In this document: positions 3,353 to 33,785 of the stretch, piece by piece
How the letters are laid out: each line of letters begins with the position of its first letter
Numbering within the stretch: position 1 is the stretch's first letter
Assembly (NCBI GenBank): GCA_016125185.1
Contig: WGMG01000005.1
Span: 62,001-126,000, forward strand
Source: Armatimonadota bacterium
Lineage (GTDB): Bacteria; Armatimonadota; Fimbriimonadia; Fimbriimonadales; Fimbriimonadaceae
Length of the DNA: 64,000 bases
Direction of reading: 5' to 3'
The notes under the pieces: generated by a model
The model's input: the letters and a program-made list of their open reading frames with translations, nothing else
What the model was told of the DNA's origin: nothing
Databases searched by the model: none
Made by a program: the position numbers and the translations under genes

Positions 3353-4393
3353 ATGATTGCGGACCTGTCTGAACTTCGACGGCGATTCATGGGACCTGAT
3401 GCGGCAAGTGAGATCATGAAGGCGGTCGCCAACAACATTGGCGAATCGGCGAATCTGGAGTTCAAGCAACTCAACGACAAGGGGATGACTGTGCAAGATG
3501 GTTCCTTCCCAAAGGACCTTCGAGTTCATCTCGCGGAGAATGTCAGCGCTTTCGCCAATCAAGCTGGCGGCATTATTGTTTGGGGTGTAGAGTGCAGGAA
3601 GAACCAGCCGATGGCCGCTTGGCCGTTTCCTCACTGTGAGAAAGTTCGGGACGTAATCAATGACGTTTCTCTCAACATCGTCGAACCAGCAACCGAAATC
3701 GAAACCACTGCGGTTCCGTTGGAAAACGGGGTCGGATTTGCAGTTACGTATGTGCCTCCCGCCAAGGTTAAACCGGTTATGTGCACGTTTAATGGCGATA
3801 AACGTTACTACTGGCGCAACGGGGAGAGTGCGATCGCAATGGATCATGGCTTGGTCAGAGCCCTGATGTTGGCCACCGCCCGACCAGAGCTTGAACTTCG
3901 AACCACAAAAACCGACGTCATCTTTGAAGGCCTTAGCACAAAGAGCCCCGATCCATCTTATCGAGTCACCATCGAATATACGATCCTCAATGTCGGTCAA
4001 GTGCTCGTATCCGAATTTGCGGTCGTGCTAACTTCGTGCCCGAATGGTACTCGGTTCTCGACAGATGGCAACCTTGCCAGGAAGACTGGACAGACTTCTT
4101 TGGATGATGACAACATGATGATCGATGGCTCGGTGATCGTGCATTCGAGTCCCGATCTTAAGCTCTTTCCAAAGTCTGGGATTCGCTTTGTCTCTATCAA
4201 GTTTCACACAAACAATCTCGAGGGTAAACACGAATTTCGCGGCTTGATCGTTGCCAAGGACGCTTCGGTGCCATTTGAATTTTCCGTTGATATGTCGAGC
4301 ATCAGTGGACGCGAACAGGCTCTACAGAAGTACCGCGAAGCGTTAAGTCAAAGACAGCTTGGGAGTCCTCCTAGGACCTCGCGATTTATTTAG
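3353..4393 (+). CDS. AlbA_2 (Schlafen-like) DNA/RNA-binding domain protein
   Basis: 346 aa. Residues about 30-75 read ES-x-x-LEFKQL ... LAENVSAFANQAGGIIVWGVE, the hallmark of the AlbA_2/Schlafen-AlbA fold (formerly called divergent AAA). The block near 150 (YYWRNGESAIAMDHG) matches the family's 'Y-R-x-G-x-S' segment. The remaining half is a beta-rich domain of unknown role with no HTH-ATPase tail. AlbA_2 proteins bind nucleic acid and occur both as regulators and as parts of phage-defence loci. Here the gene is divergent from the SIR2-like pair, so it could be its regulator or a separate defence gene. It ends just before the convergent terminator that closes the prophage transcript. Confidence 0.72.
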   Translation: MIADLSELRRRFMGPDAASEIMKAVANNIGESANLEFKQLNDKGMTVQDGSFPKDLRVHLAENVSAFANQAGGIIVWGVECRKNQPMAAWPFPHCEKVRDVINDVSLNIVEPATEIETTAVPLENGVGFAVTYVPPAKVKPVMCTFNGDKRYYWRNGESAIAMDHGLVRALMLATARPELELRTTKTDVIFEGLSTKSPDPSYRVTIEYTILNVGQVLVSEFAVVLTSCPNGTRFSTDGNLARKTGQTSLDDDNMMIDGSVIVHSSPDLKLFPKSGIRFVSIKFHTNNLEGKHEFRGLIVAKDASVPFEFSVDMSSISGREQALQKYREALSQRQLGSPPRTSRFI

Positions 4394-4404
4394 GGCGCAG
4401 GCAC

Positions 4405-4432
4405 AAAAAAGCCGCCCCTCCAGAGAGGGGCG
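4405..4432 (-). terminator. Rho-independent terminator at left end of prophage transcript
   Basis: Stem CGCCCCTC/GAGGGGCG (4413-4420 and 4425-4432) with loop CAGA. Read on the minus strand it is followed by six T (4405-4410 as A on the plus strand). It lies 33 bp after the stop of the leftmost prophage gene and marks the end of the long leftward transcript. Confidence 0.8.
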
Positions 4433-4465
4433 AGTTGTAGTTGGTCCTTAGCAAGCGTCAAAAAA

Positions 4466-5557
4466 TCACTTCGCTACGCGATTCTCGATGGCCATGATCG
4501 ATGGGCCCCAGGGACCAAACCGCGATCCGGGGTCGGTGATGCTCGGCGAGTCGGGCAAAAGTCCCCACACGCAGATGCGCCACCGCTTTGATCGCATCAG
4601 GTCGACCGTCAAGCGTCGGTACGGCGTGAGGTCGGCATCGAGCGGAAGGCGACCACATCCGTACGGCGTGACGTACACCTCGGAGGCGAGAACCGGCTTG
4701 CCCGCATAGCCCGGCATGTGCGACACCAGGAAATCGATGCGGTCGAGGCACGACGAGAAGCCAGTCTTTGCCTGGTCGAAACTGGTCGCATACGACGCGG
4801 TGAAGAGGGCGTGAATCTGGACCACGCCGCAGTCCGACAGCCAATCCGATTCCTTCGGCGGGATAGCCGAAAGCAGGGCTGGCGCCTCGCGAGATTCCCG
4901 AAAAGCGGACAGCGCGGGGGTGGCAATCCGGCTCGTCGGGATACCTAGCGAGCGGAGCATCGTCGTCTCGAGCTTTAGGAGCTTATGCAGCCGAGGGTCC
5001 CATTCGCCGAACTGCGTCGAGCTCGACCCACCCGGCTTGACTGGCATCGGAGGATTGAGCGCCAGGCCGTCCGGCTCGTTCCAAATCTCCCACGTCGGCA
5101 ACTCGCAACCGCTCGATCGCAGGGCGTCCTCGACGTGCTGGACATACTGCTTTTCGACCTCGATCAGCTTTGGCCAGACGGATGCGTCCGGCATCCACCA
5201 GTCCGCCCCGGCATGCCACAGCGACGAAGGATGCGGGCACAGCGCCACCGGCCAGATGGACCGGAACTTGTGCGTCCGGATAACCGAAACGAAGGCATCG
5301 ACGCTTCGATAATCGAACGGCTGCGCAGGGTCCCAGTCGCATTCGTGCAACGCCGGATTCACGCGTACCTCGCCGCCGGAGGCGATGAACGATGCCGCAT
5401 CGACAACGGCAGGAAAATCTTGGGCGACGTGAGCGGGCCGGATAACGCCGAGGTTCCCCCCGACCGGAGCTCGCAAGCTAGAAACAGAACTCGGCGTTTG
5501 GGATGCCGATCCCACCGCAGCAAGGACGAGGACGAGGAGAAAGGTGAAGCGTTTCAT
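4466..5557 (-). CDS. Secreted clan-A glycoside hydrolase-like protein (GH39/GH5-like)
   Basis: The ATG at 5557 is chosen because it starts a classical signal peptide (MKRFTFLLVLVLAAVGSAS), giving 363 aa; an in-frame ATG 60 bp upstream would bury it. WEIWNEPDG near residue 180 carries the Asn-Glu acid/base pair typical of clan GH-A (beta/alpha)8 glycosidases. VLASEVYVTPYG, about 130 residues later, can supply the nucleophile Glu. The enzyme probably cleaves an extracellular or surface polysaccharide. It is the last gene of the prophage tail-fibre segment. A decayed second copy of its 5' end lies at 7715-7895, so it belongs to a duplicated fibre cassette. The exact family and substrate are unknown. 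Confidence 0.6.
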   Translation of the reverse strand: MKRFTFLLVLVLAAVGSASQTPSSVSSLRAPVGGNLGVIRPAHVAQDFPAVVDAASFIASGGEVRVNPALHECDWDPAQPFDYRSVDAFVSVIRTHKFRSIWPVALCPHPSSLWHAGADWWMPDASVWPKLIEVEKQYVQHVEDALRSSGCELPTWEIWNEPDGLALNPPMPVKPGGSSSTQFGEWDPRLHKLLKLETTMLRSLGIPTSRIATPALSAFRESREAPALLSAIPPKESDWLSDCGVVQIHALFTASYATSFDQAKTGFSSCLDRIDFLVSHMPGYAGKPVLASEVYVTPYGCGRLPLDADLTPYRRLTVDLMRSKRWRICVWGLLPDSPSITDPGSRFGPWGPSIMAIENRVAK

Positions 5558-5695
5558 GGATAGAGCGTTTGGATTTGTTGGTGAAACCCGTCCCCAAATG
5601 CTTGGAATGTTGCTCATTTTCGGCTCATTGGTCGCAGTTATTGCGTTTCTTGGTTGGGTTCCTTTTCTCGTTATCCTAAGTCACTGGGTTCTTAG

Positions 5696-7351
5696 TCACT
5701 GGGTCCTTGTGAAGTAGGGAATGGACTCGGTAGCGTCGATCCTCTGCTTCAGTAAGGCGCCAAGATAGGCTTGGCCTACGGTGTTGGGGTGCAACTGATC
5801 GCCGCTCGTGTTCCCTTCAATCGAATAGGCTGTACCCGACAGGACAGAAGAGGCAAACGTGGCGAAGGTGAGCTGCGTACGAGTATTGGATGAAATCAGC
5901 TTCTTGGTACCGCCGATGTTGACGAAAGAGTTGGTCCATTGATTTCGTTGCCACGTGGCCCCCGAATCGTTGAGGGTCGTCATGCTTCCGCTGCTGGTTG
6001 TGGTTCCGCTGTATTGGGTTCCCAGGTCTGGGAAAACCTTGGTTCCCTCTTGAAGGTCCCAAATACCGTGGATCCAACCATTGGACAGAGCGGTGTCCAT
6101 GTCTGCATACTTCGCATCGAGGCCGCCCGAGCTGTAGGCGGTTGTCGTCCCATCCTCCTTCACGCCGCCGTTCGGCACCTTGATTCCGTAGACCTTGATC
6201 TTAGGATTCGACGCCCGCGCCGTGGAAGAAAAGTTGTAGTAGCAGCCGATCAGCGTCGATTCAGTATCGTTATTCGGGTCATAGACGGTCGTGATGTCGA
6301 ACCACTTCAGGAGCTTCGAGATCGTCGCCTTTTGGAGCGCCACATCCTCGGTGTTGGTAATCCAGTCGGGACTCGTTCCGGACATCGCCCAAAGGTTCAT
6401 TGCGGCCGACGCACCCACTCCGAAGTTGAGGACCGCCACCTGCGTGGTCAGAGATTGAGCATAGGCGGACGGGAAGCCAAGTTGGTCGTAGTTCGCTGGG
6501 GAATTGTTGGCAGGGTTTACGCCGCCCCATTGCTTGCTGACCGCCCCATCGCCGTCGAGGATCGACGTTCCAAAGAACACCATCGCTTTTTGACCATCCA
6601 TCGGGATACCGATGAATCCAAGACAGGACGGGAGCGACGTATCGCCCGACCCCCAGTGGTCAACGCCGCTGTTATAGCTCGAAATACCGCTCGTGGCGAT
6701 AAGCGTTTTTGCCGCCGAGTAGCTCGACGCTTCGGCGTACTGATTGTTCCACGGATAGTTGTATTCGGATATCGTTACAACCCCCAACGAATCCGTTGCA
6801 GAGCCCTTACTGTAGGCCGTACGAATCCAGGGCCACAAGGCGCGGTCGGTCCACTCGAAGTAGTCGAGGCCGAACGCAGAAGCGTAGATGAAGTCACCAA
6901 CGAGCAAGTCTCCGGGACGTAAAATCCCGTCCGTCGTCCCGCCAAATGTTCCCGTTTGAACGCTTCCGCCAGTATTTGGACACGTATAATCTGCCGGGCT
7001 CAAGGTTCCATTCGCAAGTTCTAAAGCAAAGGCAATGGTGCATTTTGGCGTGCTGTTCCCTACTGGGCTTCTGGTCGCGTACTGCTTGCCACCAAAGTAG
7101 ACGGGCGCAAGCGCAAGCCACCGTCCGCCAGCAATTCGGGCCTTGACTCGAGTCGAAAAATACTGCTTTGTGGTCGTAGCTCCGGTGTCGTCAGCGAGGT
7201 ATTCACCCTGAGAAGCCCAAATGCAACGAGGCGATGTATCGAAGGCATTCAGGAAAGCCGGATAAGCGAAACCAGCGGGATATTCGGAACCCTTGCGCGT
7301 GGGCCCGCTGACGCTCCCGGACGTTTGGTTTGGCCCGGATACGCGGCTCAT
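5696..7351 (-). CDS. Phage tail fibre/receptor-binding protein with SGNH hydrolase domain
   Basis: 551 aa from the ATG at 7351, which overlaps the upstream stop by one base (TGATG). The N-terminus MSRVSGPNQTSGSVSGPT is nearly the same as that of the paralogue at 7899-9377 and is probably a virion attachment peptide. SGNH features: block I FFGTSILDG, block II NFGVGASAAM, and a C-terminal DQLHPNTVGQAYLG (Asp-x-x-His, block V). Such esterase domains in phage fibres deacetylate host surface glycans during adsorption. Block I has Thr in place of Asp before the nucleophile Ser (GTS rather than GDS), a substitution found in some family members. It lies between the glycosidase and a small paired protein, in the duplicated cassette order. 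Confidence 0.65.
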   Translation of the reverse strand: MSRVSGPNQTSGSVSGPTRKGSEYPAGFAYPAFLNAFDTSPRCIWASQGEYLADDTGATTTKQYFSTRVKARIAGGRWLALAPVYFGGKQYATRSPVGNSTPKCTIAFALELANGTLSPADYTCPNTGGSVQTGTFGGTTDGILRPGDLLVGDFIYASAFGLDYFEWTDRALWPWIRTAYSKGSATDSLGVVTISEYNYPWNNQYAEASSYSAAKTLIATSGISSYNSGVDHWGSGDTSLPSCLGFIGIPMDGQKAMVFFGTSILDGDGAVSKQWGGVNPANNSPANYDQLGFPSAYAQSLTTQVAVLNFGVGASAAMNLWAMSGTSPDWITNTEDVALQKATISKLLKWFDITTVYDPNNDTESTLIGCYYNFSSTARASNPKIKVYGIKVPNGGVKEDGTTTAYSSGGLDAKYADMDTALSNGWIHGIWDLQEGTKVFPDLGTQYSGTTTSSGSMTTLNDSGATWQRNQWTNSFVNIGGTKKLISSNTRTQLTFATFASSVLSGTAYSIEGNTSGDQLHPNTVGQAYLGALLKQRIDATESIPYFTRTQ

Positions 7352-7647
7352 CAGTTCTGAATTTCCTTGGCGTCGCCGACGCCGGTTCCCGACGACATCC
7401 ACCAGTACACGTCGTAGGAGGTATTCCATCGGGCGTCGCCCTCGAAGGTTTGACTGGCCGAAAGCTCGGTGTCCGGTCGAATCGGCGCGGTGGTGCCAAC
7501 TGGCACACGGGCAAGGCAGAGGATTCCAGCATTGGAACTGTCGGCGTGGACTTCGATACCGACCCTGGCTGAAGATGACGCCCAAATCTTGGTCGGAGTC
7601 GTCGTCAGCGAGACGTTTGAGACTTTTGTTGCTTCGATGGTTGTCAT
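7351..7647 (-). CDS. Small beta-rich fibre-cassette protein (paralogue 1)
   Basis: 98 aa, Thr/Ser-rich and free of charged clusters. It is clearly a paralogue of the protein at 9377-9685: both share 'TKxWASxSxRVGIxxHA', 'VPxGxxAP' and a C-terminal 'EIQN/EVQN'. Each copy is fused by a TGATG overlap to a downstream SGNH protein, so the two are translated together. The length and composition suit a small virion-decoration or fibre-chaperone subunit. No named family is recognised. Confidence 0.6.
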   Translation of the reverse strand: MTTIEATKVSNVSLTTTPTKIWASSSARVGIEVHADSSNAGILCLARVPVGTTAPIRPDTELSASQTFEGDARWNTSYDVYWWMSSGTGVGDAKEIQN

Positions 7648-7714
7648 GTTGAATGGCCTATTTGAAAGTTAGCTCCCTGGACGATGCCGTGAGGGTGATG
7701 CTGGAGCGAGGATG

Positions 7715-7895
7715 GGTGGGACGCAAGGTCGTCGCATCGACGACGGCTGGGAAATATTGGGCGACCTTGGAGGGGAGGACGACGCGGGCAAACGCTATAA
7801 ATCCGGGCTAGAGAGTCGAATTGAGGCATGGTCAAGGTGCGGGCCCAACCAAGCGCTCTAAGGACGACAAAAAGAACAAATGGAAGTCGTTTCAC
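7715..7895 (-). pseudogene. Decayed 5' fragment of the secreted glycosidase gene
   Basis: Starts MKRLPFVLFVVLRALGWA, resembling the signal peptide of the gene at 4466-5557. Downstream the DNA tracks that gene (for example GCATCGACGACGG then TTGGGCGAC against GCATCGACAACGG then TTGGGCGAC) but in shifted frames, and similarity is lost after about 180 bp. The fragment sits between the two SGNH cassettes in the position the glycosidase holds in the other copy. It is therefore a remnant of a tandem duplication. Confidence 0.6.
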
Positions 7896-7898
7896 GAC

Positions 7899-9377
7899 TT
7901 ATCCTTGGTACGTGAGACAGAACGCGAAGAAACGGCCTAACGCCTGCGTTTCCTGAGCTGAAGCGTGGAGGTCGGAAGTGTCGGCGGAAACAACGCGGGC
8001 CGAAGACAGGTATTTCTTGTAGCCGGTCCGTGTCCTCATCGTCGCAACGGAGACACCGTATTGGTCGGCAAGAAACGTCGGATAGCTGGCCCAAACGCCG
8101 TTTGGCTCGGCTTCGATCATCGCTTTCATCGCCTCCATATAGTCGTTGTAGGCCGAGTATTCCGTGATCGGCGTAAGCTCGAAGAACACGAACGGAACAC
8201 CCTCGGTGGCCGCCTGTTGAACGAGCGATTGAACTCTCCCGACCGCCGCCGCAATTTCTCCCGAATCTGGGTGAGTGGACGACCACCCGAAGGTATCCAC
8301 CGTTGAGCCCACATTTGTATATTCACTATAGGTAACGATGGCATTGTCGCCAGCCATGTTCCGTCCAAGATCGACCGTTGTAGGGCTAGACGGGTTCCGT
8401 TGCCATGGTTGGTACTTTTTGAGCCATCGAAGCGCGTTGTTCCAGAACCGGAATAGCCCGTAAGTGTTGCCATAGTACGTCGAGGTCGGTGACGAGGTAC
8501 CGTCAACATACATGTCCCGAGCCTCGCCGTAGTGACCTTCATTCACACAGACTGCATATTTATCGTTGAAGGTTGTTCCGCCAACCTTGCCGACGAACCG
8601 ACCACATCCTACCGGCGTATTTCCGGCATAGAAGACGACCGTACAGCCGGCTCCGGAAGAAACGCCAGCACTCATAGCCTCAAAGCCCGAAGGAACAAAG
8701 AAGATATTATTCGCCTTCCCGAACTGCACGCCATTTGCGTCCATCGTAATATTGGCGGTTTGCCCCCACCCCCCGTCCCACGAGTAAGAACTCGCGTATT
8801 TCGTCGGGTCAGTTGCAAGGTGCGCGACCCGGTTGGTGGTCGTGCCATAGGTAGGAATTGTACTGGTCACGTCGCCCGTGTAAACGGAGCACCCGAACGA
8901 ACCCGACACACCAGGAGCTGAGCAAAGAGTGAAACCTAGATGGTCTAGACCGGTCGGGAAGTAATAGGCCAGTGAACCGCCCGAGGAAATCACGCGCTGT
9001 CGCATTGTATCGGTGCCAACATTTCCAGGGCTGTCCGTTCCGGTCTTGGTCATTGAGGGCATTAGCGCGACGCCACCACCGCTGTTATAGCTGAAGGGAA
9101 CATCAAAAACCTGATGCCCAGTGTAAGTGGATAGTTCTTCGTTAACAATTGCCGTCCATGCCATGCGAGACGGGGCAATCGTAGCATTAGGGTTCGCCGT
9201 CTCGGTCTTCGAGTCACCAAGCGCCACAATGACGACCGACTCAGCTCCGGCCTTCGCGTTTTTCATGATGCCACGAATCATTGAAAGTCCGGCCCCACTG
9301 AGCCCTGATGGAGGCGTGTAAAGAGTCGGCCCGCTGACGTTCCCGGATGTCTGATCCGGCCCGGATACGCGGCTCAT
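7899..9377 (-). CDS. Phage tail fibre protein with SGNH-like hydrolase domain (paralogue 2)
   Basis: 492 aa. The N-terminal MSRVSGPDQTSGNVSGPT peptide matches the 5696-7351 protein. The body differs: VIVALGDSKTETAN is a canonical GDS block I, and a C-terminal SADTSDLHASAQETQALG is a candidate His block, although the Asp-x-x-His spacing is not perfect. The start ATG overlaps the stop of the small upstream paralogue by one base. Sharing only the attachment peptide with a divergent catalytic body is the usual pattern of fibre genes that swap receptor-specific domains. Confidence 0.6.
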   Translation of the reverse strand: MSRVSGPDQTSGNVSGPTLYTPPSGLSGAGLSMIRGIMKNAKAGAESVVIVALGDSKTETANPNATIAPSRMAWTAIVNEELSTYTGHQVFDVPFSYNSGGGVALMPSMTKTGTDSPGNVGTDTMRQRVISSGGSLAYYFPTGLDHLGFTLCSAPGVSGSFGCSVYTGDVTSTIPTYGTTTNRVAHLATDPTKYASSYSWDGGWGQTANITMDANGVQFGKANNIFFVPSGFEAMSAGVSSGAGCTVVFYAGNTPVGCGRFVGKVGGTTFNDKYAVCVNEGHYGEARDMYVDGTSSPTSTYYGNTYGLFRFWNNALRWLKKYQPWQRNPSSPTTVDLGRNMAGDNAIVTYSEYTNVGSTVDTFGWSSTHPDSGEIAAAVGRVQSLVQQAATEGVPFVFFELTPITEYSAYNDYMEAMKAMIEAEPNGVWASYPTFLADQYGVSVATMRTRTGYKKYLSSARVVSADTSDLHASAQETQALGRFFAFCLTYQG

Positions 9378-9685
9378 CAGTTCTGGACCTCGTACGCGTT
9401 GTACGCCCCAGAGCCAGTCGTCATCGCGACGTACAAGTCGACGCTACCGTTAAATTCATTGCCGCCATCGAGCGTTTGGCCCGGCGAGAGTTCGTACATG
9501 GCGGTCGCGACAGAGAGCGTCGGTGCTGAAGCCCCAGCCGGTACTGCGGTCACAAGGAGATTGGCAGAATTGCCGGACGAAGCATGGATGCGGATTCCAA
9601 CGCGAGAGCTATTGGATGCCCACACTTTTGTCGCCGACGTGCCGAGAGACGAAGATTCAGTTTTGGTCGAAGAGATCAGGTTCAT
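9377..9685 (-). CDS. Small beta-rich fibre-cassette protein (paralogue 2)
   Basis: 102 aa, a paralogue of the 7351-7647 product with shared 'TKVWAS-S-RVGI-IHA' and C-terminal 'YEVQN'. It has the same one-base coupling to a downstream SGNH protein. Together with 7351-7647 it shows that the unit [small protein, SGNH protein, glycosidase] exists twice. The function is unknown; it is probably structural. Confidence 0.6.
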   Translation of the reverse strand: MNLISSTKTESSSLGTSATKVWASNSSRVGIRIHASSGNSANLLVTAVPAGASAPTLSVATAMYELSPGQTLDGGNEFNGSVDLYVAMTTGSGAYNAYEVQN

Positions 9686-9687
9686 GT

Positions 9688-10644
9688 CTAATAGCCTTTT
9701 TGGAAATTGGTCACGATCCAGCCGGATACGAACGACGAATATCGCGCCTCGAGCAGGTCGATAGCCGACGCCGCGGTCGAAAGCGTCACCGTGATGCCGG
9801 TCGGCACCTTAAAGGCCGCATCGAGCGTGAGCGTGCGAGAGCCCGTCGCGTCCTGCTGGAACAGCCACGCGCACCGCTGACCCTCTCGGGGATTGAGCGG
9901 CAGATTGAGGGTTCGATTTCCGCCAAGCGTCACCGTGAAAATGTCGCCCAGGCTGACATTCGTGTCGATCGTCGCGCCGTCGGTCAGGGTAACCGTCGCC
10001 TTTCGGTCCTCCAAATGCAGGTACTTCGAGCCATCCCATAGCCACCTTGCCGAGAGAGTTTTGGCCACGAACATGAACTCACTGGTGGGCGAATCCGACG
10101 GTTTGAACGGATCGCTCGATGCCCGCCAAGGCAGGCCGCCGTCTAGGTATAGAACGCCGGTGAAGTCGATAGCGGTGATCCCCGTTCCATCGGTCGTCAC
10201 CGAGCCGAGATAGATTGCATAAGTTACCGGAGTATAGGGCGTCGCCCCGCTAGAGACCGTGCCATTGGCGAGGAGCCAGACGTCGGCCGTCTCGCTCAAG
10301 CTCATCGTCTTGGTCTGAGCGATGGATTCGACGAGGTCGGGGGCAAACGCCTGGCCGGCCGCAATCGTCAGGGTCAGGCTGGTGGTGTCGCCAGAAAGAT
10401 CGAAGCCCTTCACGATGCCCGCCGGGGCTCCGCCACGGCTCTGGATGCACAGCCGCGCCGCGTGGTCATTAAAATAAGCGGCAAGGTAGTTGCCCAATAG
10501 CCCGGAGCTGATCGTCTTGGCTCGGGTCGTCGTCGATGTGCCGTCGACCGCGACAGTCGCGATGTCCGGCGTTGCGCTCGGCGTCATAGGGACAGGCACG
10601 GCAGAAAAGAGCTGCGCGGCAGCGGTCGGAGTTACTGCGGACAT
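9688..10644 (-). CDS. Putative tail/baseplate fibre protein
   Basis: 318 aa, rich in Thr, Ser, Ala and Gly and almost free of Cys and coiled-coil. Residues about 225-315 ('GDIFTVTLGGNRTLNLPLNPREGQ ... GSRTLTLDAAF') resemble the repeated 'N-x-T-L-x-L-P-x-x-x-x-x-G-Q' beta domain seen at the end of many phage fibre proteins. The gene lies between the Asp-box protein and the duplicated SGNH cassette, in the usual late-tail position. The exact place in the virion is not determinable from sequence. Confidence 0.55.
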   Translation of the reverse strand: MSAVTPTAAAQLFSAVPVPMTPSATPDIATVAVDGTSTTTRAKTISSGLLGNYLAAYFNDHAARLCIQSRGGAPAGIVKGFDLSGDTTSLTLTIAAGQAFAPDLVESIAQTKTMSLSETADVWLLANGTVSSGATPYTPVTYAIYLGSVTTDGTGITAIDFTGVLYLDGGLPWRASSDPFKPSDSPTSEFMFVAKTLSARWLWDGSKYLHLEDRKATVTLTDGATIDTNVSLGDIFTVTLGGNRTLNLPLNPREGQRCAWLFQQDATGSRTLTLDAAFKVPTGITVTLSTAASAIDLLEARYSSFVSGWIVTNFQKGY

Positions 10645-10648
10645 AGAT

Positions 10649-12418
10649 TTAGCTGAAGCGGGTGAAGGTCATGCCCCCGCTAAGGGCATCGGTTGAGAAC
10701 CAGGACGATGGCGAGGTCTCGCCATGGATGAGAGCGGACAAGATGATGCGCTGCGCCGTATCTTGGCCAAAGTGGATATGAAACGAAGTATCGTCGAAGC
10801 TGAGATTGGCTCCAGAGCTGTCTTTACAGGTAGCCGGACCACTGAACGAGGTATCGCCCGCCGAGCGGTACAAAACCTTGATCGTCCCTGGCCCCGATGT
10901 GCCCGAATCGTAGACGAAAGCCGCCTCTAGCCTGTCGCCAAGAGGGCTGCTGCTCCCTGTGGGGAAGCGTCCATTCGTGATTCCCATATCTTCTAAATCC
11001 GCCCAGGTCTTGCCGCCATCGTCCGACCAAGACCGGTAGCAATGAAGCGTTCCCGATGAGTTCTTGCCAATGACCGCATAAATGCGCAGGCGGTTGTCAT
11101 CGTAAACACGGCACTGCTCGCATTGCGCATCAGCCGAAACCGTCGCGAGCCCAGTATCCCCTCGTGGCAAAGTGTAGGTCCACCATCGCACCTTTGCCCC
11201 TTCGCCATCCACGAAACTGATAAGGAACCGATGATCCCGAGTTGACAGGTTCCAGACGCCATGAAGCGTCGGAGCCTCGCAAGGTGGCTTGGTCGTATAG
11301 CTGACCGCGCGTGTCCCCAGATAGGTGCAGTGATAGCTGGTGCCCGTCGGGTAACAGCTTGGGTCCACGAAACCAAAGATGCAAGGGTTTCCGCCAATGA
11401 CATGAACGCAAAAAACATTGTCGCTGACAACTTCGACTGACCGCGTGGACTTGCACTCCCACACCGACGGAGTCGTATATTCTGTGTCCGAGCTACTAAC
11501 AATACCGTCAGTATCGGAACACCTCCAAGATGTTCCGACCTGCTCCTGCCCCAGATTGATCCGCTTGTCTTTGATGTAGATCGGGCCGGCCGACTCATAT
11601 CTTCCCTCTCGATGCCGACGGTAAGTCGTGCCGTGCATGCTGGCCGGACTGTCCAAACAAGGGCAGTCAAACGTCGAGACCGCTTCGTCGTAGGTTCGCC
11701 ACCTAAGTTTGATGGCCGCGTCAACGGTATAGGACCATTGATCGACGGTCGCGCCGATAGAAGGAAGATCATAGTAGCAATCACAACTGCTACCACCTGC
11801 AGTTCCGGTGTCGAAGGTGACCGGATCGTACACCCAGCTACCCAACGCGTCTTTGTACCGATAGCCGCCTTGATTGAACCTCGCTTCCACGTCGGTGTCT
11901 GGCACTAAAGCTGACGAACAATCCCAAGTTGGCGACCACGTCGGCTCGGCAAAGATCGGCTGGGCGATGGTGGCGTTCTCGCGCTCGTCGTAGGCTCCCG
12001 CACCCTCGGAATGCGAATAGCTGCCCCAGCTCACCACGTGGCTCTCGCCGCCTCCGTTCACGCTCAGGTAAGCATCGATCGCCGACCAACTGACCGTATA
12101 CGAGCAATCCGAACCGACGACGAGTTGGTAATCCGTGATGTAAATTCGCAGATAGGCCGACGAAAGCAGCCCCGCCACCGACCCGCTAGCGTAGGATCCA
12201 ACCGGACTATCGAGCGTAACGTTGTGCGACGAGCTGCCTAAATTGCTGACAATCTCGCCCGCAATATTGAGCCCGGTCCCGGTGTCGCCCCACTGCTCGG
12301 TCAACAGCGTCCGAAGATAAGGTGTGTAGGTCAGACCCGCCGTGGCTAGGCCAGTTTCGCTTCCCGAGAACGGCAAAAGCAGCTCGTAATCGGTCGCCGG
12401 TTCGTTCTTATGGATCAT
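10649..12418 (-). CDS. Putative tail-tip protein with Asp-box (BNR-like) beta-propeller segment
   Basis: 589 aa from the ATG at 12418, which overlaps the stop of the preceding small gene (ATGA). The C-terminal half contains SDDGGKTW, a perfect S-x-D-x-G-x-T-W Asp box as in sialidase/BNR propellers. The flanking blades look similar (FVYDSGTSGPG, HFGQDTAQR). Many Cys pairs lie in the middle third (for example SSCDCYYD and FDCPCLD), unusual for a cytoplasmically assembled virion protein. It probably recognises a surface glycan. No catalytic sialidase Arg triad can be asserted. Confidence 0.5.
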   Translation of the reverse strand: MIHKNEPATDYELLLPFSGSETGLATAGLTYTPYLRTLLTEQWGDTGTGLNIAGEIVSNLGSSSHNVTLDSPVGSYASGSVAGLLSSAYLRIYITDYQLVVGSDCSYTVSWSAIDAYLSVNGGGESHVVSWGSYSHSEGAGAYDERENATIAQPIFAEPTWSPTWDCSSALVPDTDVEARFNQGGYRYKDALGSWVYDPVTFDTGTAGGSSCDCYYDLPSIGATVDQWSYTVDAAIKLRWRTYDEAVSTFDCPCLDSPASMHGTTYRRHREGRYESAGPIYIKDKRINLGQEQVGTSWRCSDTDGIVSSSDTEYTTPSVWECKSTRSVEVVSDNVFCVHVIGGNPCIFGFVDPSCYPTGTSYHCTYLGTRAVSYTTKPPCEAPTLHGVWNLSTRDHRFLISFVDGEGAKVRWWTYTLPRGDTGLATVSADAQCEQCRVYDDNRLRIYAVIGKNSSGTLHCYRSWSDDGGKTWADLEDMGITNGRFPTGSSSPLGDRLEAAFVYDSGTSGPGTIKVLYRSAGDTSFSGPATCKDSSGANLSFDDTSFHIHFGQDTAQRIILSALIHGETSPSSWFSTDALSGGMTFTRFS

Positions 12419-12615
12419 TCGCCGCCACACCCGCAGGGCTTCTTTTTGGGGGCTTCCCCCCGCTCTCTCGCCTTCGCGTCCTCAAAAATCCGGCGGATCA
12501 GCGGAAAAACCTTGGTCTTCAGTTCCTCGACCATCTGGGCATCGCCCCGGATGCGCAAGATCACCACGCCGGGGTTGTTGGACCGAAAGTCCAACCGATG
12601 TCGCAGGAATCGCAT
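12415..12615 (-). CDS. Small Cys/Lys-tailed phage protein
   Basis: 66 aa, starting MRFLRHRLDFRS and ending KKKPCGCGGE. The first 15 codons and the upstream 40 bp are repeated at 13930-14018. A duplicated segment with two inserted plus-strand genes therefore separates it from its original neighbour at 13994-14212. The CGCGG tail may bind metal or form disulphides. The function is unknown; it sits among tail genes. Confidence 0.5.
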   Translation of the reverse strand: MRFLRHRLDFRSNNPGVVILRIRGDAQMVEELKTKVFPLIRRIFEDAKARERGEAPKKKPCGCGGE

Positions 12616-12654
12616 AAAAGCTCAATTGATTAGTCGTATCCGACCGTGAAGAAA
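12568..12654. repeat. Direct repeat, copy A (flanks moron insertion)
   Basis: About 85 bp nearly identical to 13930-14018. Shared blocks include TGGACCGAAAGTCC, CGATGTCGCAGGAATCGCAT and GCTCAATTG. It holds the 5' end of the 66-aa gene and its upstream spacer. GGAC-CGAAA-GTCC within it is itself a small hairpin. Confidence 0.8.
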
Positions 12655-12738
12655 CGTTGGCGAGGTCGTATGAATGGCTCGTCGCGAACCATCGAAGATC
12701 TATCGATTCCCCCAGGATTTGGTCCTGGGCAATCCTGC

Positions 12739-12744
12739 TAGAAT
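12739..12744 (+). promoter_or_regulatory. -10 box of leaderless moron gene
   Basis: TAGAAT six bases before the GTG start. The 14 bases ending here (AATCCTGCTAGAAT) are identical to those ending at 17160, upstream of another moron. No SD can fit. Confidence 0.6.
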
Positions 12745-12750
12745 CCAAAC

Positions 12751-13164
12751 GTGGATCAGGGCAAGCGGCATTCGATCGTGATTTGGATTTCCGGCATGAT
12801 CTTATTAGTAGGGGGCCTATTTCTGGCCTATGCCCTTACAAGGCCCCAAATCGTTGGAGAAATCGAATGCAAGTCAGGTTCAACAGATGGGTACGACGGG
12901 GTCAATCCAGACTGCTATTTCAAGAATACATCCACTATTGAACTAACGAATATCTACCTTGGCGACCTACTGGATTGCGCCGACAGCCCTGACTATGAAT
13001 CGGTGCAACATGGAGAGAAGGCATTCTCGCTGAATACTGGGAGCAGCTTCCCCATTGACCCCGCCATCATACGAGATGGATGCCGTCATTTACAGGTTGT
13101 TGGCATCTCGGATCAAGGCAAAATCGAGATTACGCAAACTTCAAACAACATGAGTTTCCACTAA
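12751..13164 (+). CDS. Moron: single-pass membrane protein with exported domain
   Basis: 137 aa, GTG start. A short basic N-terminus is followed by a membrane helix at about residues 9-27 (IVIWISGMILLVGGLFLAYAL). Then comes an approximately 105-residue domain with four Cys (IECKSG, DCYF, DCADS, DGCRH) likely outside the membrane. It reads against the surrounding tail operon, has its own -10 box and lies within a segment bounded by direct repeats, all typical of a lysogenic-conversion (moron) gene. Superinfection exclusion or envelope modification is plausible, but nothing identifies it. Confidence 0.6.
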   Translation: MDQGKRHSIVIWISGMILLVGGLFLAYALTRPQIVGEIECKSGSTDGYDGVNPDCYFKNTSTIELTNIYLGDLLDCADSPDYESVQHGEKAFSLNTGSSFPIDPAIIRDGCRHLQVVGISDQGKIEITQTSNNMSFH

Positions 13165-13354
13165 ACGGAAAACGCTCCCAACATCGTCGGGTGCATTGCC
13201 ACTACCTGTTTTTGGTACGGTTCGTCTTCGTCCGATCCCTTGACGGGTTTGGTGACAGGATTCTCGATTTCTAGGATTGGCTCAAGACGAAAGCACGTCG
13301 AAAAGAACGAAAACGCTCGGTGAGTTGGCGCCGTTTTTTTACGAGGGTTAGAAC

Positions 13355-13385
13355 TTGGAGGTTTTGGGCGGAATCCGGTTAAAAT
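13355..13385 (+). promoter_or_regulatory. Promoter of second moron gene
   Basis: TTGGAG (13355-13360), 19-nt spacer, TAAAAT (13380-13385), then ATG 8 nt later at 13394. Again there is no room for a leader. Confidence 0.45.
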
Positions 13386-13393
13386 CGAATGCA

Positions 13394-13909
13394 ATGGATT
13401 TTAAGACCTGGATGCGTATGGTGGAACGCGCCGGAACTTCGGTCGGCGCTATCGACCGCGCGTGGTTGCATTCTCAGTTTTTAGATGGAGCTTCCCCTGC
13501 AGTCGTTGCGCAAATAGTGAAGAGCGGGCAAGCGCCTAAACTACAGCCACAGGTCAGGCCCATTTCTGCAATCGACCCTTCGGATCCGCGGGCAATGAAG
13601 TTCCCTTCCGATCGTTCTGAATGGAAAATCGCCATGAGCGTTTTAGCGATCGCCATCATTGCACCTTGTGGGTACTTAGGCTGGGAGCTACACGTTCTGA
13701 GTGTCTGGTCAAGGGTTTACCCCTCTCGGCAAGGTGAAGGATTTGGCTATTTTCTTGGTGACACGTGGTGGTGCTACCTTGTCGTACTCGCCGCCATCTT
13801 CTTTGCGCGCAGATTTTTTAAGTATTCACCCTATGTTAGTTGGCAACGAGACAACTACGTGGTGACCGTCACTGTTTTGTCTCTCATTGCGGCATTCTTC
13901 TGCGGCTAA
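13394..13909 (+). CDS. Moron: three-helix membrane protein
   Basis: 171 aa from the ATG at 13394; an upstream in-frame TTG (13355) would lie inside the promoter. Residues 1-45 form a soluble helical segment (DFKTWMRMVERAG ... SPAVVAQIVKSG). Hydrophobic helices lie near 80-100, 120-138 and 152-170, and the protein ends at FFCG. It is co-directional with the moron at 12751 and lies inside the same repeat-bounded insert. A membrane-acting phage exclusion role is possible; I do not recognise the family. Confidence 0.55.
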   Translation: MDFKTWMRMVERAGTSVGAIDRAWLHSQFLDGASPAVVAQIVKSGQAPKLQPQVRPISAIDPSDPRAMKFPSDRSEWKIAMSVLAIAIIAPCGYLGWELHVLSVWSRVYPSRQGEGFGYFLGDTWWCYLVVLAAIFFARRFFKYSPYVSWQRDNYVVTVTVLSLIAAFFCG

Positions 13910-13929
13910 ACCGAATCGTCGGTTGGTTT

Positions 13930-14018
13930 GCCGGGGTGAAAATGGACCGAAAGTCCACCCGATGTCGCAGGAATCGCATAGAGGCTCAATTGGCTAGTCG
14001 TAACCGACCATGAAGAAG
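13930..14018. repeat. Direct repeat, copy B, with truncated gene start
   Basis: Second copy of the repeat at 12568-12654. On the minus strand it contains ATGCGATTCCTGCGACATCG at 13979 downward, the start of the 66-aa gene, which here runs into unrelated sequence. In this copy the end of the 72-aa gene (13994-14212) is preserved, so copy B marks the original junction of the two neighbouring phage genes. Confidence 0.75.
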
Positions 14019-14212
14019 AATTCTCCGAAGGTCGGCGAAGTGGGGTCGTTGTCTTGGATTGGAGCATTTAAGCCCGATCCGCCCTGCGCCCGTTTCTGGA
14101 CGCTCATTTCAACCGATTGGCTTAAGAAGATTTTCCGAAATCCAGGAGGGAGCGCCAATTGCTGGTTGGTCACGTCTCTAACGGCATTTCGTCTAGTGAA
14201 TAGGCTTTTCAT
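13994..14212 (-). CDS. Small phage tail-region protein
   Basis: 72 aa, start overlapping the stop of the large tail protein by 4 nt (ATGA), so it is translationally coupled. The sequence is polar with a basic N-terminus (MKSLFTRRNAVRD) and ends FFFMVGYD. It would have been directly followed by the 66-aa gene before the moron insertion. The role is unknown. Confidence 0.55.
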   Translation of the reverse strand: MKSLFTRRNAVRDVTNQQLALPPGFRKIFLSQSVEMSVQKRAQGGSGLNAPIQDNDPTSPTFGEFFFMVGYD

Positions 14213-16974
14213 TGAATCGTTCCTCCTGTTTTCCAGTGGTCAAGGTCTGTTGGCAAAAAGGCTTCATAATTGGCAAGCATGTTTCGTGTGCCGCCCCTAG
14301 TGGCTGTCCAATCTGGATTCACGTTGGCGATGATGTGCTGGACTCCGTTAATGAGTACCGGATCACCATACCGAAGCGGCCTCGGTTGCCTTTGGTACCC
14401 GGCGTCCGTATCCGCTTTGTCCGTGATTAGGAGCATGGGTGCCGTAAACTTAACCCGCTGCTGGGCCTGGCAAGCAAGATCAAAGATGCGGCGAGTGTAG
14501 AAATTGACCGCTTCTTGGCTCCAGAGCTCGTTATCCCCGTAATAAATCCAAACCGGTCGTCCGTTCGTGTAAACCGGGTTCGTTGGGTCTGGCGTGATAG
14601 GCTGGTCCGGGTAGAACTCGGCCGCCTTAAATTGCATGGCGACTTGTTGAAGTTCCTGGAATGCGATTGCCAAAGGCACGGTACTTGCATTCACCCCGGT
14701 ACCTGAAACCCAAACTGCATTTGCTTCCGGCGGCACGACATAGCTTAGATAGCTCCCTTTTTGAATCCAGCAAGTTTGAATCTCCTGGCCGCCAATCCCG
14801 GTTTCAACTTCTTGGTAAGGCAACCCCATTCGAAGCCTCACTCCCGTGCTAGAAGCAAGTGATGGGGTTGATTTGAAGTGAGCAAGATTCACCCATGCTC
14901 CATCCACTGGTCTTGGTGGAACTAAGAGTCTCCATGCCCCCATTTTATAGGGCGTACCCGTCGCGTTCGATGCGTTTCCATCCCAAACAAGCCACCCACC
15001 CAAATAAAGCATGGCGAGCTTGGCGATGACTGGGTAAATCGGAGTAAACATCTCAACGACAAGAAGTTGGGTGTCGTTGCTGGGCCCGAAGAGACGAACA
15101 GGGTAGGCCGGTTCCGGAATGATGATGTTCTCATCGAGGTAAGAGTCACCAAGAAGAATACGAATGATATCGGTGATCTTCCAAGGCAAACGCTTACTAT
15201 CCGAAGTAGTGCTGGCGTCGATGGTGAAGTCCCATCGCTGGCTCGCCGTCGCCTGCATGAGTCTCTGCCATTCCCCCGTACAGGTGATGGAGTATTGAGA
15301 CCAGTTGTCAACCGGCCAATCCGCTCCGGTCGTTCCTCCCTTAATGGTTCTGTTGGCTTGGACGACGTAGCCGTTAAAGAGGCTCGAAACCTTGGTGTCG
15401 TCCGCTGGGTCGTATTTAACCTCGACCTTAATTGCCATTCCTGAACGCGTATCGAGCGTAGAAAGCTCGCCCTTAAAATCAGTGCATTGAATTAGGCCCG
15501 TCTCGTGTGTCGGGTCTGAATCCTGCCCCGTAAGCGATATACTGTTGACCGTCGAAAGCTCGAATGGCGTCGTAGTTGTCTGGCTAAGAACTGGTGCCCG
15601 GTAAAACCTCACCCGAGAAATCGTGGGGGTCTTGAGGTTGTCGGATGACGTGAGATAAATGATCGCGTAGTATTTTCGCCGAGTGTACTTCTTAGAGGAA
15701 GTATCCGCCACCCGCCCATTGGTGGGGTCAAATGTTCGGTACCCATAACTGGAATAGTTGGTCTGTGGGAACGTAGGATTCAGTTCAGTATTAGTCTCTG
15801 CATCGTAGCAGGTAATCGTTACATCGGTACCTTCGGGCTTGTCGCCAAACCATTCAACAACGAGCGAATTGGTAGACGAAATCGGGTAACCAACATCAAC
15901 GACATGCGTAATCAGAAAAGCCGACGAATAGTACATCGGCCTTTCTACAAACCAAAGAGATCGGACATCAATGCGCTCATCGAGCCGGAACTTCTCGGGC
16001 ATAGCCTCGTATGCTCCAGCGTTCGGCACCCAATAGGTAGGGAATCTTGCGTTGTTTGTCGGATCGATCTCAGTTTTCGTTTGCCAGTTCGCCCAGTCGG
16101 TATTAGCCCCAGTGTTTAGACATTGAAAAATGATCTTTGAGCCCGCATACACCCCGTCAGCATAAACGGCATCCGACCATATGACGAACGTGTGATGAAT
16201 TCCGAAAGGGAACGGCTCAATGAAGAAATCAAACTTGAATCGGTTTGTCCAAGAGTAAGTCCCAGTGGCGGGGTCTAGAAGCCTTTCATGCAGGAGAGCG
16301 AACCCATTTCCGAACAGAGTAAGCGCATATTGGCCCGTGCCGCGTTTCGTTCCGTCCGTTTCAGTGCTGCCAGGAACGTTAGTGAAGTAGATGCGGGAAA
16401 TTGCCGACATCTTGTCAACACCTTTTGCCTCCAAGCTGTAGATGATTGTATCGGTCGGGAATAAGTCGTTGGCACTGACCGCTCGCCTCCTAAGAGGTTG
16501 AACACTATTAATCCCAGGAGGTGGGAAAGCTGCTTCGTCTGCATCGAGCCCGACATCAAACGAATCACCAGCCGCAACCTCCATTTGGTAGCGAATGCGC
16601 CCGGTACTGGCCTGATTGGTGCCCGTTGAAACGCCCGGTAGATCGTTATTGGACCGGTAAGTTTTACGGGCCTGAATTGTTATGTAAAGCGAAGCGAGTT
16701 CGATAGCAGCCGAACCCCAGCTTGAATATTCGACCCCCCGATCCCCAACTTGCGCCTGACTTGCAATCTGCCACCCTTTGCCGGGGAGAAAGGAGATATT
16801 TGAAGCAACGTTTGAAAGTACGTCAAGAAAGTTTGCGCCAAAGTAATTGTGCGATGGCATCGATGCGATCTTGTCGTGCGCAAGCTCAATGAAGATACTC
16901 GGCTCCTTCACGAACACGTCTGGCGCGTCGAGAGTGACGACCGTGGTCCGATCTGGCGTGATTCCGTTACTCAT
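14209..16974 (-). CDS. Large tail/baseplate hub protein
   Basis: 921 aa, the first large gene after the tape measure, a position held by distal-tail and tail-associated (Dit/Tal, gp18-type) proteins. No lysozyme or peptidase motif is visible. The sequence is beta-rich with many Thr/Asn/Gly. The segment near 495-560 (LTGQDSDPTHETGLIQCTDF ... VEVKYDPADDTKVSSLFNGYVVQ) has the look of a baseplate-hub beta-barrel that mentions its own frame of reference, as in phage 'tail protein' hubs. The C-terminal YGDPVLINGVQHIIANV likewise fits hub domains. The assignment rests on order, size and composition rather than on a diagnostic motif. Confidence 0.5.
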   Translation of the reverse strand: MSNGITPDRTTVVTLDAPDVFVKEPSIFIELAHDKIASMPSHNYFGANFLDVLSNVASNISFLPGKGWQIASQAQVGDRGVEYSSWGSAAIELASLYITIQARKTYRSNNDLPGVSTGTNQASTGRIRYQMEVAAGDSFDVGLDADEAAFPPPGINSVQPLRRRAVSANDLFPTDTIIYSLEAKGVDKMSAISRIYFTNVPGSTETDGTKRGTGQYALTLFGNGFALLHERLLDPATGTYSWTNRFKFDFFIEPFPFGIHHTFVIWSDAVYADGVYAGSKIIFQCLNTGANTDWANWQTKTEIDPTNNARFPTYWVPNAGAYEAMPEKFRLDERIDVRSLWFVERPMYYSSAFLITHVVDVGYPISSTNSLVVEWFGDKPEGTDVTITCYDAETNTELNPTFPQTNYSSYGYRTFDPTNGRVADTSSKKYTRRKYYAIIYLTSSDNLKTPTISRVRFYRAPVLSQTTTTPFELSTVNSISLTGQDSDPTHETGLIQCTDFKGELSTLDTRSGMAIKVEVKYDPADDTKVSSLFNGYVVQANRTIKGGTTGADWPVDNWSQYSITCTGEWQRLMQATASQRWDFTIDASTTSDSKRLPWKITDIIRILLGDSYLDENIIIPEPAYPVRLFGPSNDTQLLVVEMFTPIYPVIAKLAMLYLGGWLVWDGNASNATGTPYKMGAWRLLVPPRPVDGAWVNLAHFKSTPSLASSTGVRLRMGLPYQEVETGIGGQEIQTCWIQKGSYLSYVVPPEANAVWVSGTGVNASTVPLAIAFQELQQVAMQFKAAEFYPDQPITPDPTNPVYTNGRPVWIYYGDNELWSQEAVNFYTRRIFDLACQAQQRVKFTAPMLLITDKADTDAGYQRQPRPLRYGDPVLINGVQHIIANVNPDWTATRGGTRNMLANYEAFLPTDLDHWKTGGTIQ

Positions 16975-17166: not shown

Positions 17167-17475
17167 ATGAATACCAAAACCTTCCTATTACGACTCTCTA
17201 TAGCTGTCGCCGTGTTTGGCAGTTTGCTAGTGTCATTTTGGTTCTGGCATGATGCCAAACGCATGAATGAAGAGACTAAACTCTCAGCCGAAGACCGAAA
17301 GGATTTGGCCGCGGCGCATGTCGTTCGTCAAGAAATGGAACAAGCGCAACTTTCCGAGCAACTTCGCCAGAAAATGAGAGAATCCGCCGGGGATGAATTC
17401 AATAAAATCAAATCCGGCGAAGTTAAGGTTACGGTTGATAAGAGCGGGGCCGCATGGGTCGATAAGGGGGGTTAG
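17167..17475 (+). CDS. Moron: small membrane-anchored coiled-coil protein
   Basis: 102 aa. An N-terminal membrane helix (residues 6-27, FLLRLSIAVAVFGSLLVSFWFW) is followed by a charged helical region rich in Glu, Lys and Gln (30-80). The protein ends with a short beta segment. It is antisense to the tail operon and its last 4 bases overlap the 3' end of the tape-measure gene. The promoter is shared in sequence with another moron. The small single-pass plus coiled-coil layout resembles phage exclusion proteins, but no family is identified. Confidence 0.55.
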   Translation: MNTKTFLLRLSIAVAVFGSLLVSFWFWHDAKRMNEETKLSAEDRKDLAAAHVVRQEMEQAQLSEQLRQKMRESAGDEFNKIKSGEVKVTVDKSGAAWVDKGG

Positions 17476-24663: not shown

Positions 24664-24750
24664 GGTTTTCCTATTGTTGAGGTTCAAATTGTTGTGTTGC
24701 ATGTGGAGTGGCTGAACGCAGTGAAGCCGTGGGGAGGATTCGTCGATGAT

Positions 24751-24926
24751 CAAAGGAGGTCAGCCCCTTTGGGAGTGCTCAAGCCTGCTTGAGCTTTCAG
24801 CAATCGAAGCCTGCTTCGATGAAAGGGGATCGCGATTTCCCTCTCCGACTTCTCGCGAAGTGAAAGTCGGGGAGGGTGTCTCCTGACTTGTGTCAGGAGA
24901 CGGGAGGGGAAAATCCGCTGTTTCTA
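24751..24926. repeat. Palindromic repeat family A, copy 1
   Basis: Unit of about 180 bp with nested hairpins: TCAAGC-CT-GCTTGA, ATCGAAGC-CT-GCTTCGAT (24803-24820), CTCCGACTT...AAGTCGGGGAG, and TCTCCTGAC-TTGT-GTCAGGAGA. It starts with AAAGGAGGT, a perfect complement of a 16S rRNA 3' tail. It interrupts the portal-protease junction of the phage operon. Confidence 0.85.
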
Positions 24927-24930
24927 CCCA

Positions 24931-25013
24931 TCAAAGGAGGTCTGCCCCTTTGGGAGTGCTCAAGCCTGCTTGAGCTTTCGACAATCGAAGCCTGCTTCGC
25001 TGACGAGGAGGAC
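24931..25013. repeat. Palindromic repeat family A, copy 2 (short)
   Basis: Tandem partial copy of the preceding unit: AAAGGAGGT, TCAAGC-CT-GCTTGA and a one-mismatch ATCGAAGC-CT-GCTTCGCT. It stops before the longer hairpins. Confidence 0.8.
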
Positions 25014-25024
25014 ATGTGTTCAGC

Positions 25025-25127
25025 CTCCTCCCCTCCGGTTTGCTTCGCGCACCGACTCCACATGAATCCTGCCTTTGTGGCAGGCTCCATTGCGGACCCT
25101 CCCTAGGGAGCAGCGTAGTTACTAGGC
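25025..25127. repeat. Palindromic repeat family C, inverted copy
   Basis: Contains CCTGCC-TTTGT-GGCAGG and ACTCCACATGAATCC. It is the reverse complement of the copies near 34.0 and 34.5 kb. Confidence 0.75.
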
Positions 25128-25278
25128 TCGAATTGAGTTCATACCAATTCGCCATTTTGTAAAGGTCCCAATTTTGAAAGCTGAAATGTTCATCACCCCA
25201 CCCCCGATTTCCGAATAGCCATGCTACTCCCTAGGGGGAGTCGCTGAGCCAAGACATGGCGAAGCGGTGGGGAGGATT

Positions 25279-25335
25279 CGTCGATGGTCAAAGGAGTTCG
25301 GCCGTCATCGAAGCCTGCTTCGATAACGGGGAGGA
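25279..25335. repeat. Palindromic repeat family A, copy 3 (core only)
   Basis: AAAGGAGTTCGGCC followed by the perfect 18-bp palindrome ATCGAAGCCTGCTTCGAT at 25307-25324. The rest of 25128-25449 holds more mosaic fragments (GAATTG...CAATTC hairpin near 25130) and no gene. Confidence 0.75.
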
Positions 25336-27468: not shown

Positions 27469-27537
27469 GGCTTTTTGGATGGTGGGTAAGTTTGAGTTAC
27501 AGAAGAGCTTCAACCCTCTCCTCGGAAACGCGGACAT

Positions 27538-27769: not shown

Positions 27770-28342
27770 TCAAGAATTTTCATTCTTTAGTGATTCGTAC
27801 ACAGACCTTACGATAAACAGGAGCATTATTAGCAGAAATACAAAGAAGTAGATTGACAAGCATTCCATTATGCGAAAGGCAGCTGTTGGAGGTGAGGCAA
27901 CTGTACCCATACTCGGCTGCTTAGGCACCATGCACAGGCAGCCAACCCACAATGCAACGTCAAAAAGAGATACGAGAATACAGAAACAAATACAAACTAG
28001 GTTCCCGTGAGAAGATTTCTTTTGATCCGTGAGGTACCGTATCTCAACTTTCGCATCGGTAGTCTCGGTACCATTTTGAGTTAGTCTCGTAATTTCATCT
28101 CTAATCCTGCGTTCCTGATCACTAGCAGGTACGAGCATTCCAAGCATAAGGGCAGAGTAAATTGAGACGGCCGTAATGATTGTCGATATCTGGGTTTCAG
28201 ACAGATTGAAGCCCCATAAAAGTGGTGCCAGCGCAACAAGTGGCATGAAATGCGCCGTGAATGTCACGTACAGCTCCATGGAACGGTACTGATCTCTTAG
28301 CAGACGCAAGATGACATTATCCAGAAATCGAAGTGCTTTCAT
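27770..28342 (-). CDS. Moron: four-helix membrane protein of a two-gene pair
   Basis: 190 aa, start overlapping the upstream stop by 4 nt. Hydrophobic helices lie near 28-45, 52-72, 113-135 and 162-183. A cytoplasmic loop of about 35 polar residues sits between helices 2 and 3. It is paired with the soluble 295-aa protein upstream. Both are more AT-rich than the phage genes and separate the terminase and portal genes, which are normally adjacent. The architecture 'soluble sensor plus multi-pass membrane protein' is common in abortive-infection systems; no known family is recognised. Confidence 0.55.
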   Translation of the reverse strand: MKALRFLDNVILRLLRDQYRSMELYVTFTAHFMPLVALAPLLWGFNLSETQISTIITAVSIYSALMLGMLVPASDQERRIRDEITRLTQNGTETTDAKVEIRYLTDQKKSSHGNLVCICFCILVSLFDVALWVGCLCMVPKQPSMGTVASPPTAAFRIMECLSIYFFVFLLIMLLFIVRSVYESLKNENS

Positions 28343-30930: not shown

Positions 30931-31056
30931 CGCACTAGATTGGATGGGCTCGCGTTGCGGGGGCCTTCTGCTTTCTGCCTTCTGCTTATTGAGTTAAGAA
31001 GGCAAAGGGCTCGCCATGCTAGGGCGAGGGCTTTGCACTCTGCACTCTGCTCTCTC

Positions 31057-31229: not shown

Positions 31230-31241
31230 CAGCCCACTGGG

Positions 31242-31395: not shown

Positions 31396-31547
31396 AAAAT
31401 GAAAACCGACCCACCCTCGACTTCCGACTAACCACGCTACTTCACGATGGGGTAGGCGGACTCCGTCAACGGACCAACCCAGATACCCCTTGTAGAAGGG
31501 GTCGGTGAGCTAGCGAACCGGGGGATAGGCGACCAAACCCACAACCC

Positions 31548-33777: not shown

Positions 33778-33785
33778 CAGCCCAC

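Follow-up and report, generated by a model that had tools for sequence, protein, structure and literature searches.

A two-gene moron-like insert between diverged copies of a gene junction in an Armatimonadota prophage tail operon

How do extra genes enter a phage operon while the genes on either side stay whole? What is known of moron entry into phage operons has mostly been inferred by comparing genes, and insertions that keep duplicated junctions are of use here since the crossover points stay recorded in them. We analyzed a candidate case in a prophage of an Armatimonadota bacterium (genome of 4.5 Mb), where a direct repeat flanks a 1.28-kb insert holding two membrane-protein genes on the strand opposite to the tail operon. 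The window, i.e., the whole 64-kb stretch of DNA analyzed, is part of a 139.7-kb contig. The prophage lies on the leftward strand, with terminase, portal, a protease-like head gene and tail genes in that order, and around the insert the minus-strand tail genes follow each other as 921 aa, 72 aa, insert, 66 aa and 593 aa (Table 1).

Table 1. Coordinates of the insert, its flanks and the prophage landmarks (positions in the window)
Feature	Position	Strand	Description
Terminase	29476-30930	-	
Portal	25450-27537	-	
921-aa gene	14209-16974	-	phage tail-region gene; query for finding relatives
72-aa gene	13994-14212	-	phage gene; upstream flank of the insert
Right repeat copy (J_R)	13930-14017	-	3' end of the 72-aa gene in functional form (FFMVGYD, stop), then spacer and a frameshifted, dead 66-aa start
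Gene 2	13394-13909	+	171 aa from the ATG at 13394; predicted 50-aa helical N-terminal domain and 2-3 TM helices
TAAAAT element	13380-13385	+	promoter-like, 8 nt ahead of the gene 2 ATG
Gene 1	12751-13164	+	137 aa, one N-terminal TM helix, GTG start
TAGAAT element	12739-12744	+	promoter-like, 6 nt ahead of the gene 1 GTG
Inverted repeat	12711-12729	+	perfect, 7-bp stem and 5-nt loop; immediately precedes gene 1 and may be an operator
Left repeat copy (J_L)	12568-12653	-	remnant of the 72-aa gene, its end codons (FFTVGYD, stop), then spacer and the functional 66-aa start
66-aa gene	12415-12615	-	phage gene, PCGCG motif at its end; downstream flank of the insert
593-aa gene	10649-12430	-	phage tail-region gene

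Other features of the window were recorded alongside. Two genes between terminase and portal (27770-29226, minus strand) have a GC3 of 0.46 versus 0.77-0.78 in those neighbors and are possibly a recent acquisition. A repeat family of about 40-400 bp, with direct and inverted copies at 75-100% identity, surrounds the head genes (24700-25300, 31000-31450, 33000-34750 and 35500-35660). The plus-strand gene at 35847-37712 encodes a KAP-family P-loop NTPase with leucine-rich repeats, whose NTPase part matches the PADLOC models PDC-S20, QatA and PifA.

A repeated gene junction around the insert

The core of the repeat pairs 12579-12653 with 13943-14017 (75 bp ungapped, 91% identity), and when a small indel is allowed it extends to 12568-12653 and 13930-14017 (86 versus 88 bp). 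Its local-alignment score of 118 compares with a best score of 31 in 300 dinucleotide shuffles of stretches of about 400 bases, and with a best of 24 in 500 dinucleotide shuffles of the repeat itself. Thus, the proposal of the first-pass annotation that a direct repeat bounds two rightward membrane-protein genes is confirmed, whereas its description of the copies as near-identical does not hold at 91%. The edges of the repeat are sharp: 100-bp stretches beyond both sides score at shuffle level, and a longer duplication that has since decayed was rejected on this basis. Higher-scoring repeats exist in the window, all of them elsewhere (24.7-35.7 kb), and a search of the bacterium's own genome returned the two copies and no further ones. 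The copies differ at 7 of 75 positions and by an indel. Placement of the seven mismatches shows no significant skew (Fisher p 0.11); their pattern neither dates nor polarizes the copies, nor does it separate decay from parental divergence. The folding of the repeat DNA is not notable (z -0.9 to -1.8). Seven database stretches from viral and genome contigs share a 20-mer of the junction. None is similar beyond 20-22 bp there, and none encodes a relative of a window protein; the junction was therefore rejected as a widespread mobile end.

Read on the operon strand, each copy comprises the last codons of the 72-aa gene, its stop, a 14-nt spacer, and the beginning of the 66-aa gene (start and first 12 codons). 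The repeats had previously been described as containing the 5' end of a phage gene; they do contain the start of the 66-aa gene, together with the 3' end of the 72-aa gene, so that a whole stop-spacer-start junction is repeated. Both tail genes are intact because the right copy has the true 72-aa end and the left copy the true 66-aa start. In the right copy, a frameshift leaves the 66-aa start dead (31 codons).

The same operon holds a second repeated stop-start junction (7299-7359 versus 9325-9385, minus strand; 61 bp, 88.5%), which consists of the end of a 102-aa gene and the start of a tail-fiber gene and joins paralogous tail-fiber modules. This 102-aa gene has a 98-aa paralog (at about 7351-7650) ending at the left copy, with a score of 202 versus a shuffle maximum of 54, and a fragment resembling the 383-aa gene lies near 7733. 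The two tail-fiber proteins at this junction are alike in their first 18 residues and in nothing more. As judged from these sequences, a three-gene tail-fiber module appears to have been tandemly duplicated and to have diverged. Placed at random within 4.5-20 kb, a segment of this length would cover a tight junction with a probability of 2-3%. Since the second duplicated junction joins tail-fiber modules, no moron is needed in this phage for junction repeats to form around unlike DNA. Together, the full stop-spacer-start unit and the second duplicated junction make it worthwhile to look for repeated gene junctions as a possible general sign that modules have been exchanged.

The insertion site in related genomes

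Of 113 genomes searched, 10 besides the bacterium's own have a relative of the 921-aa protein, and the downstream genes could be read in all 10. Both flanking genes are kept in two of these (G007 and G036) and are adjacent in both, so the inserted genes are extra genes between genes that are contiguous in relatives. G007 carries a 72-like gene (score 87) and a 66-like gene (score 47), each score unmatched in 1000 shuffles, with the stop of the former and the start of the latter one base apart. In G036, the 72-like end is fused to the large gene (score 40, with 6 of 1000 shuffles as high) and overlaps by 4 bp with the 66-like gene (score 45, 1 of 1000). An opposite-strand gene is absent from the site in nine of the ten relatives, and seven (G009, G001, G017, G059, G060, G045 and G046) have neither a recognized 66-like gene nor an opposite-strand gene there. 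In the tenth, G006, an opposite-strand ORF (locus L013, contig G006:C9, 2-340, plus strand) comes right after the 72-like gene. It is tRNA_anti-like (OB-fold), with a match to PF12869 just above the cut-off, and is possibly a different occupant of the same site, a status that is ambiguous because the contig ends there.

The first-pass annotation had predicted that an empty site would show the 72-aa and 66-aa genes adjacent and one copy of the repeat. G007 and G036 bear out the adjacency but not the single copy, as no other genome of the 112 carries the repeat DNA. Relatives with the repeat and no insert, which it had named as the refuting pattern, were not seen. Protein identity in the large gene is about 25-35% at the empty sites, and because of this distance the junction DNA is not recognizable there. 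A search of viral and genome contigs with the 921-aa protein gave no confirmed relatives, and phage records gave two partial matches, to Microcystis phages, covering 10% of the query.

Transcription signals and relatives of the inserted genes

Of the 12 genes compared, all opposite-strand or members of the family, 10 have a TARAAT element that precedes the start by exactly 6 nt, and in gene 2 the distance is 8 nt. The single gene of the 12 without it is a 181-aa gene at a second locus of the genome (C1, see below). Among 14 prophage operon genes, none has TARAAT within 16 nt of its start. The pattern was first noticed in the genes of the window and C1 and was then checked in five family members outside both (C6, C4, G024 and two of G011), all of which fit. 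The extended motif GYTARAATN6RTG has two matches in the 64 kb versus 0.14 expected, and both belong to opposite-strand prophage genes (gene 1 and the gene at 17167). A scan with the sigma-70 consensus found no promoter. The 71-nt stretch that includes the inverted repeat upstream of gene 1 folds with a z of -4.2. One terminator-like site lies between the insert genes (13318) and the region has two, versus 3.0 expected by chance. The promoter-like elements point to leaderless, independent transcription, and in silico the inserted genes have putative promoters of their own, with TARAAT 6 and 8 nt ahead of the starts. Overall, a genuine insertion is supported, with moron-like genes that lie on the opposite strand, carry their own promoter-like element and are flanked by genes that touch in relatives.

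A further opposite-strand gene amid the tail genes (17167-17475, plus strand) codes for 102 aa with one TM helix. It has TAGAAT 6 nt ahead of its ATG and a weak Rz-like spanin match (PHROG, E 5e-4), and its relatives were not found in 40 other genomes.

Relatives of gene 1 were found in none of the 84 other genomes of the family (own genome only, 1 of 85), and its predicted structure is of low confidence except for the TM helix. Gene 2 would code for 184 aa if the TTG at 13355 were used (13355-13909), and homologs favor the start at 13394. Its family, with members in 5 of 85 genomes, has the 50-aa helical N-terminal domain (pLDDT 91-96 in the gene 2 model) and varied C-termini. A fold search with gene 2 gave no PDB match better than E 1.5. 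No family of Pfam, PHROG or PADLOC matches either insert protein; in agreement with the earlier reading, no transposase or recombinase was seen in the insert. Kinship of gene 1 with the C-terminal domain of the gene 2 family was rejected (hhalign, 14 columns only, probability 0.7%).

One member of the gene 2 family sits near a gene that we take from its sequence to be leuB, in the bacterium's own genome (C6), G024 and G011, and therefore looks like an ordinary chromosomal gene. At C1, four members lie on the plus strand amid related tail-operon fragments, which include a 66-like gene (score 103), tail-fiber genes, the N-terminal 34 residues of a 921-like gene and a part that by eye looks like the beginning of the 593-aa gene. 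Directly next to the 66-aa-gene homolog there, as in the window, stand the closest relative of gene 2 (31%) and a 249-aa member (plus strand); going by its gene order, this arrangement is donor-like. The stretch examined (L016, G000:C1:70500-90000) has the form of a scrambled tail-operon remnant at 7785-14984, with the four plus-strand members between minus-strand tail fragments and a NACHT-LRR protein nearby (3988-7041). The cargo also connects prophage tail operons to a family of chromosomal membrane proteins that has a promoter type of its own. Based on position, promoters and TM helices, the insert membrane proteins probably act on the lysogen envelope, e.g., against superinfecting phages; among the PADLOC defense families, no match to them was found.

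Routes of arrival and known counterparts

Our assessment, held with moderate confidence, is that out-of-register recombination between two related phages or prophages brought the two-gene moron. In this scenario, 921-72 and one 72/66 junction would come from one parent, 66-593 and a second junction copy from the other, with the moron located between the crossover points. Surviving products would be those keeping whole copies of both tail genes, which would place a junction on both sides and leave the unused halves free to decay. The moron genes would be expressible from a silent prophage because they run against the operon and have leaderless-type promoter elements. Out-of-register recombination is preferred over its rivals because junction repeats arise here without a moron. 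The 9% divergence, a step in composition and the second junction repeat fit two parents at least as well as they fit a target duplication. The step (GC3 of 0.54-0.60 in the moron, 72-aa and 921-aa genes versus 0.66-0.76 in the 66-, 593- and 318-aa genes) is weak because GC3 varies elsewhere in the prophage too (0.46-0.78). A donor phage with this junction was found in none of the 113 genomes, and the seven matches to the 20-mer in viral and genome contigs showed no further similarity.

The first-pass annotation had held that the insertion duplicated its target. The adjacent flanks in G007 and G036 uphold the insertion; the duplication is not established, because among the 113 genomes no relative has the repeat in which the ancestral single junction copy would be visible. 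Under such a duplication, widely staggered nicks would have been filled in around a captured fragment, with no transposase, copying 86 bp of target. We consider this unlikely: 86 bp is far above the usual length of target duplications (about 2-14 bp), the 9% divergence demands an old event, and in a scan of 13 loci no further opposite-strand gene had such a repeat around it, even though one sharp-edged copy per side, both tail genes intact, a frameshift and a missense change in the unneeded half-copies, and no terminal inverted repeats or recombinase seen are what it would leave. Somewhat less probable still is a Campbell-type homologous integration of a circle already carrying the moron and the junction, in which the repeats would resemble attL and attR and exact excision would be possible. 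Its geometry fits the observed pair, which shares a longest exact run of about 22 bp in a total of 75 bp at 91%, but for RecA such an exact run is short, and neither a circular donor nor a free junction copy was found in the own genome and 112 others. The operon's tandem modules, with shared junctions and unlike bodies, lend some plausibility to the junction having been duplicated in tandem first, as in the tail-fiber modules, with the moron later replacing the DNA between the copies; yet no phage-gene remnant lies beside the copies and similarity past them is at shuffle level, which makes this the least probable of the routes. Our ranking, i.e., recombination, then duplication at insertion, circular integration and prior tandem duplication, is a judgment.

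Two enzyme-driven routes were rejected. Against a transposon or IS element, there is no transposase family match in Pfam, PHROG or PADLOC, no inverted repeat at the insert ends, and the insert DNA is single-copy in the genome; against an integrase-driven island with attL and attR, there is no integrase inside, the two membrane-protein genes being the sole content.

A broader and rather doubtful reading would make the gene junctions of this prophage lineage landing pads, at which junction-flanked cargo might enter or leave tail operons by homologous recombination, enzyme-free and with the neighbors whole; the moron and the tail-fiber module would then be two outcomes of one process. To see in the locus a clear footprint of moron entry into tail operons, as had been suggested, goes too far with a single case.

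Among known systems, the accessible text of one study describes in genes 43-46 of mycobacteriophage LRRHood a 1.35-kb extra segment between 29-bp direct repeats, of which relatives have one copy; its authors favor acquisition by recombination with another phage, and no recombinase is named in that text (PMC3029335). Both cases have an extra segment between direct repeats, with no recombinase named there or seen here. They differ in that our repeat is 86-88 bp at 91%, the relatives are distant and the cargo encodes membrane proteins, whereas LRRHood has 29 bp, very close empty relatives and a repressor in the cargo. The same text describes MPME1 as a 439-bp element with inverted repeats, found at several sites (PMC3029335); the present insert is likewise small and in a phage genome but is single-copy and without terminal inverted repeats.

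The ant moron of P22-like phages places variable genes at one fixed place of the late operon; in P22 these include one for superinfection exclusion, and the main text, as far as accessible, contains neither "direct repeat" nor "duplication" (PMC2629481). Extra genes at one operon place are common to both, and the ant moron is far better sampled. P22 SieA, as described in the accessible text, is an inner-membrane protein of 162-164 aa with three predicted TM domains that is encoded in the moron region of the late operon and excludes phages (PMC10883804). The insert also carries small membrane proteins in a late-operon moron, a likeness by description, and unlike SieA gene 2 has the extra 50-aa helical N-terminal domain. 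HK97 gp15 is mentioned in this literature as well.

No comparable moron case was found in the accessible part of the SPP1 text (PMC6316719), and the literature on break repair with duplication, as far as its accessible parts go, is mainly eukaryote and transposon work. Within the accessible moron literature on direct repeats, duplication and boundary sequences, LRRHood was the sole close precedent noticed. The present case is real but largely familiar: a trace of phages acquiring extra genes, for which LRRHood is a precedent, here with a longer, diverged repeat.
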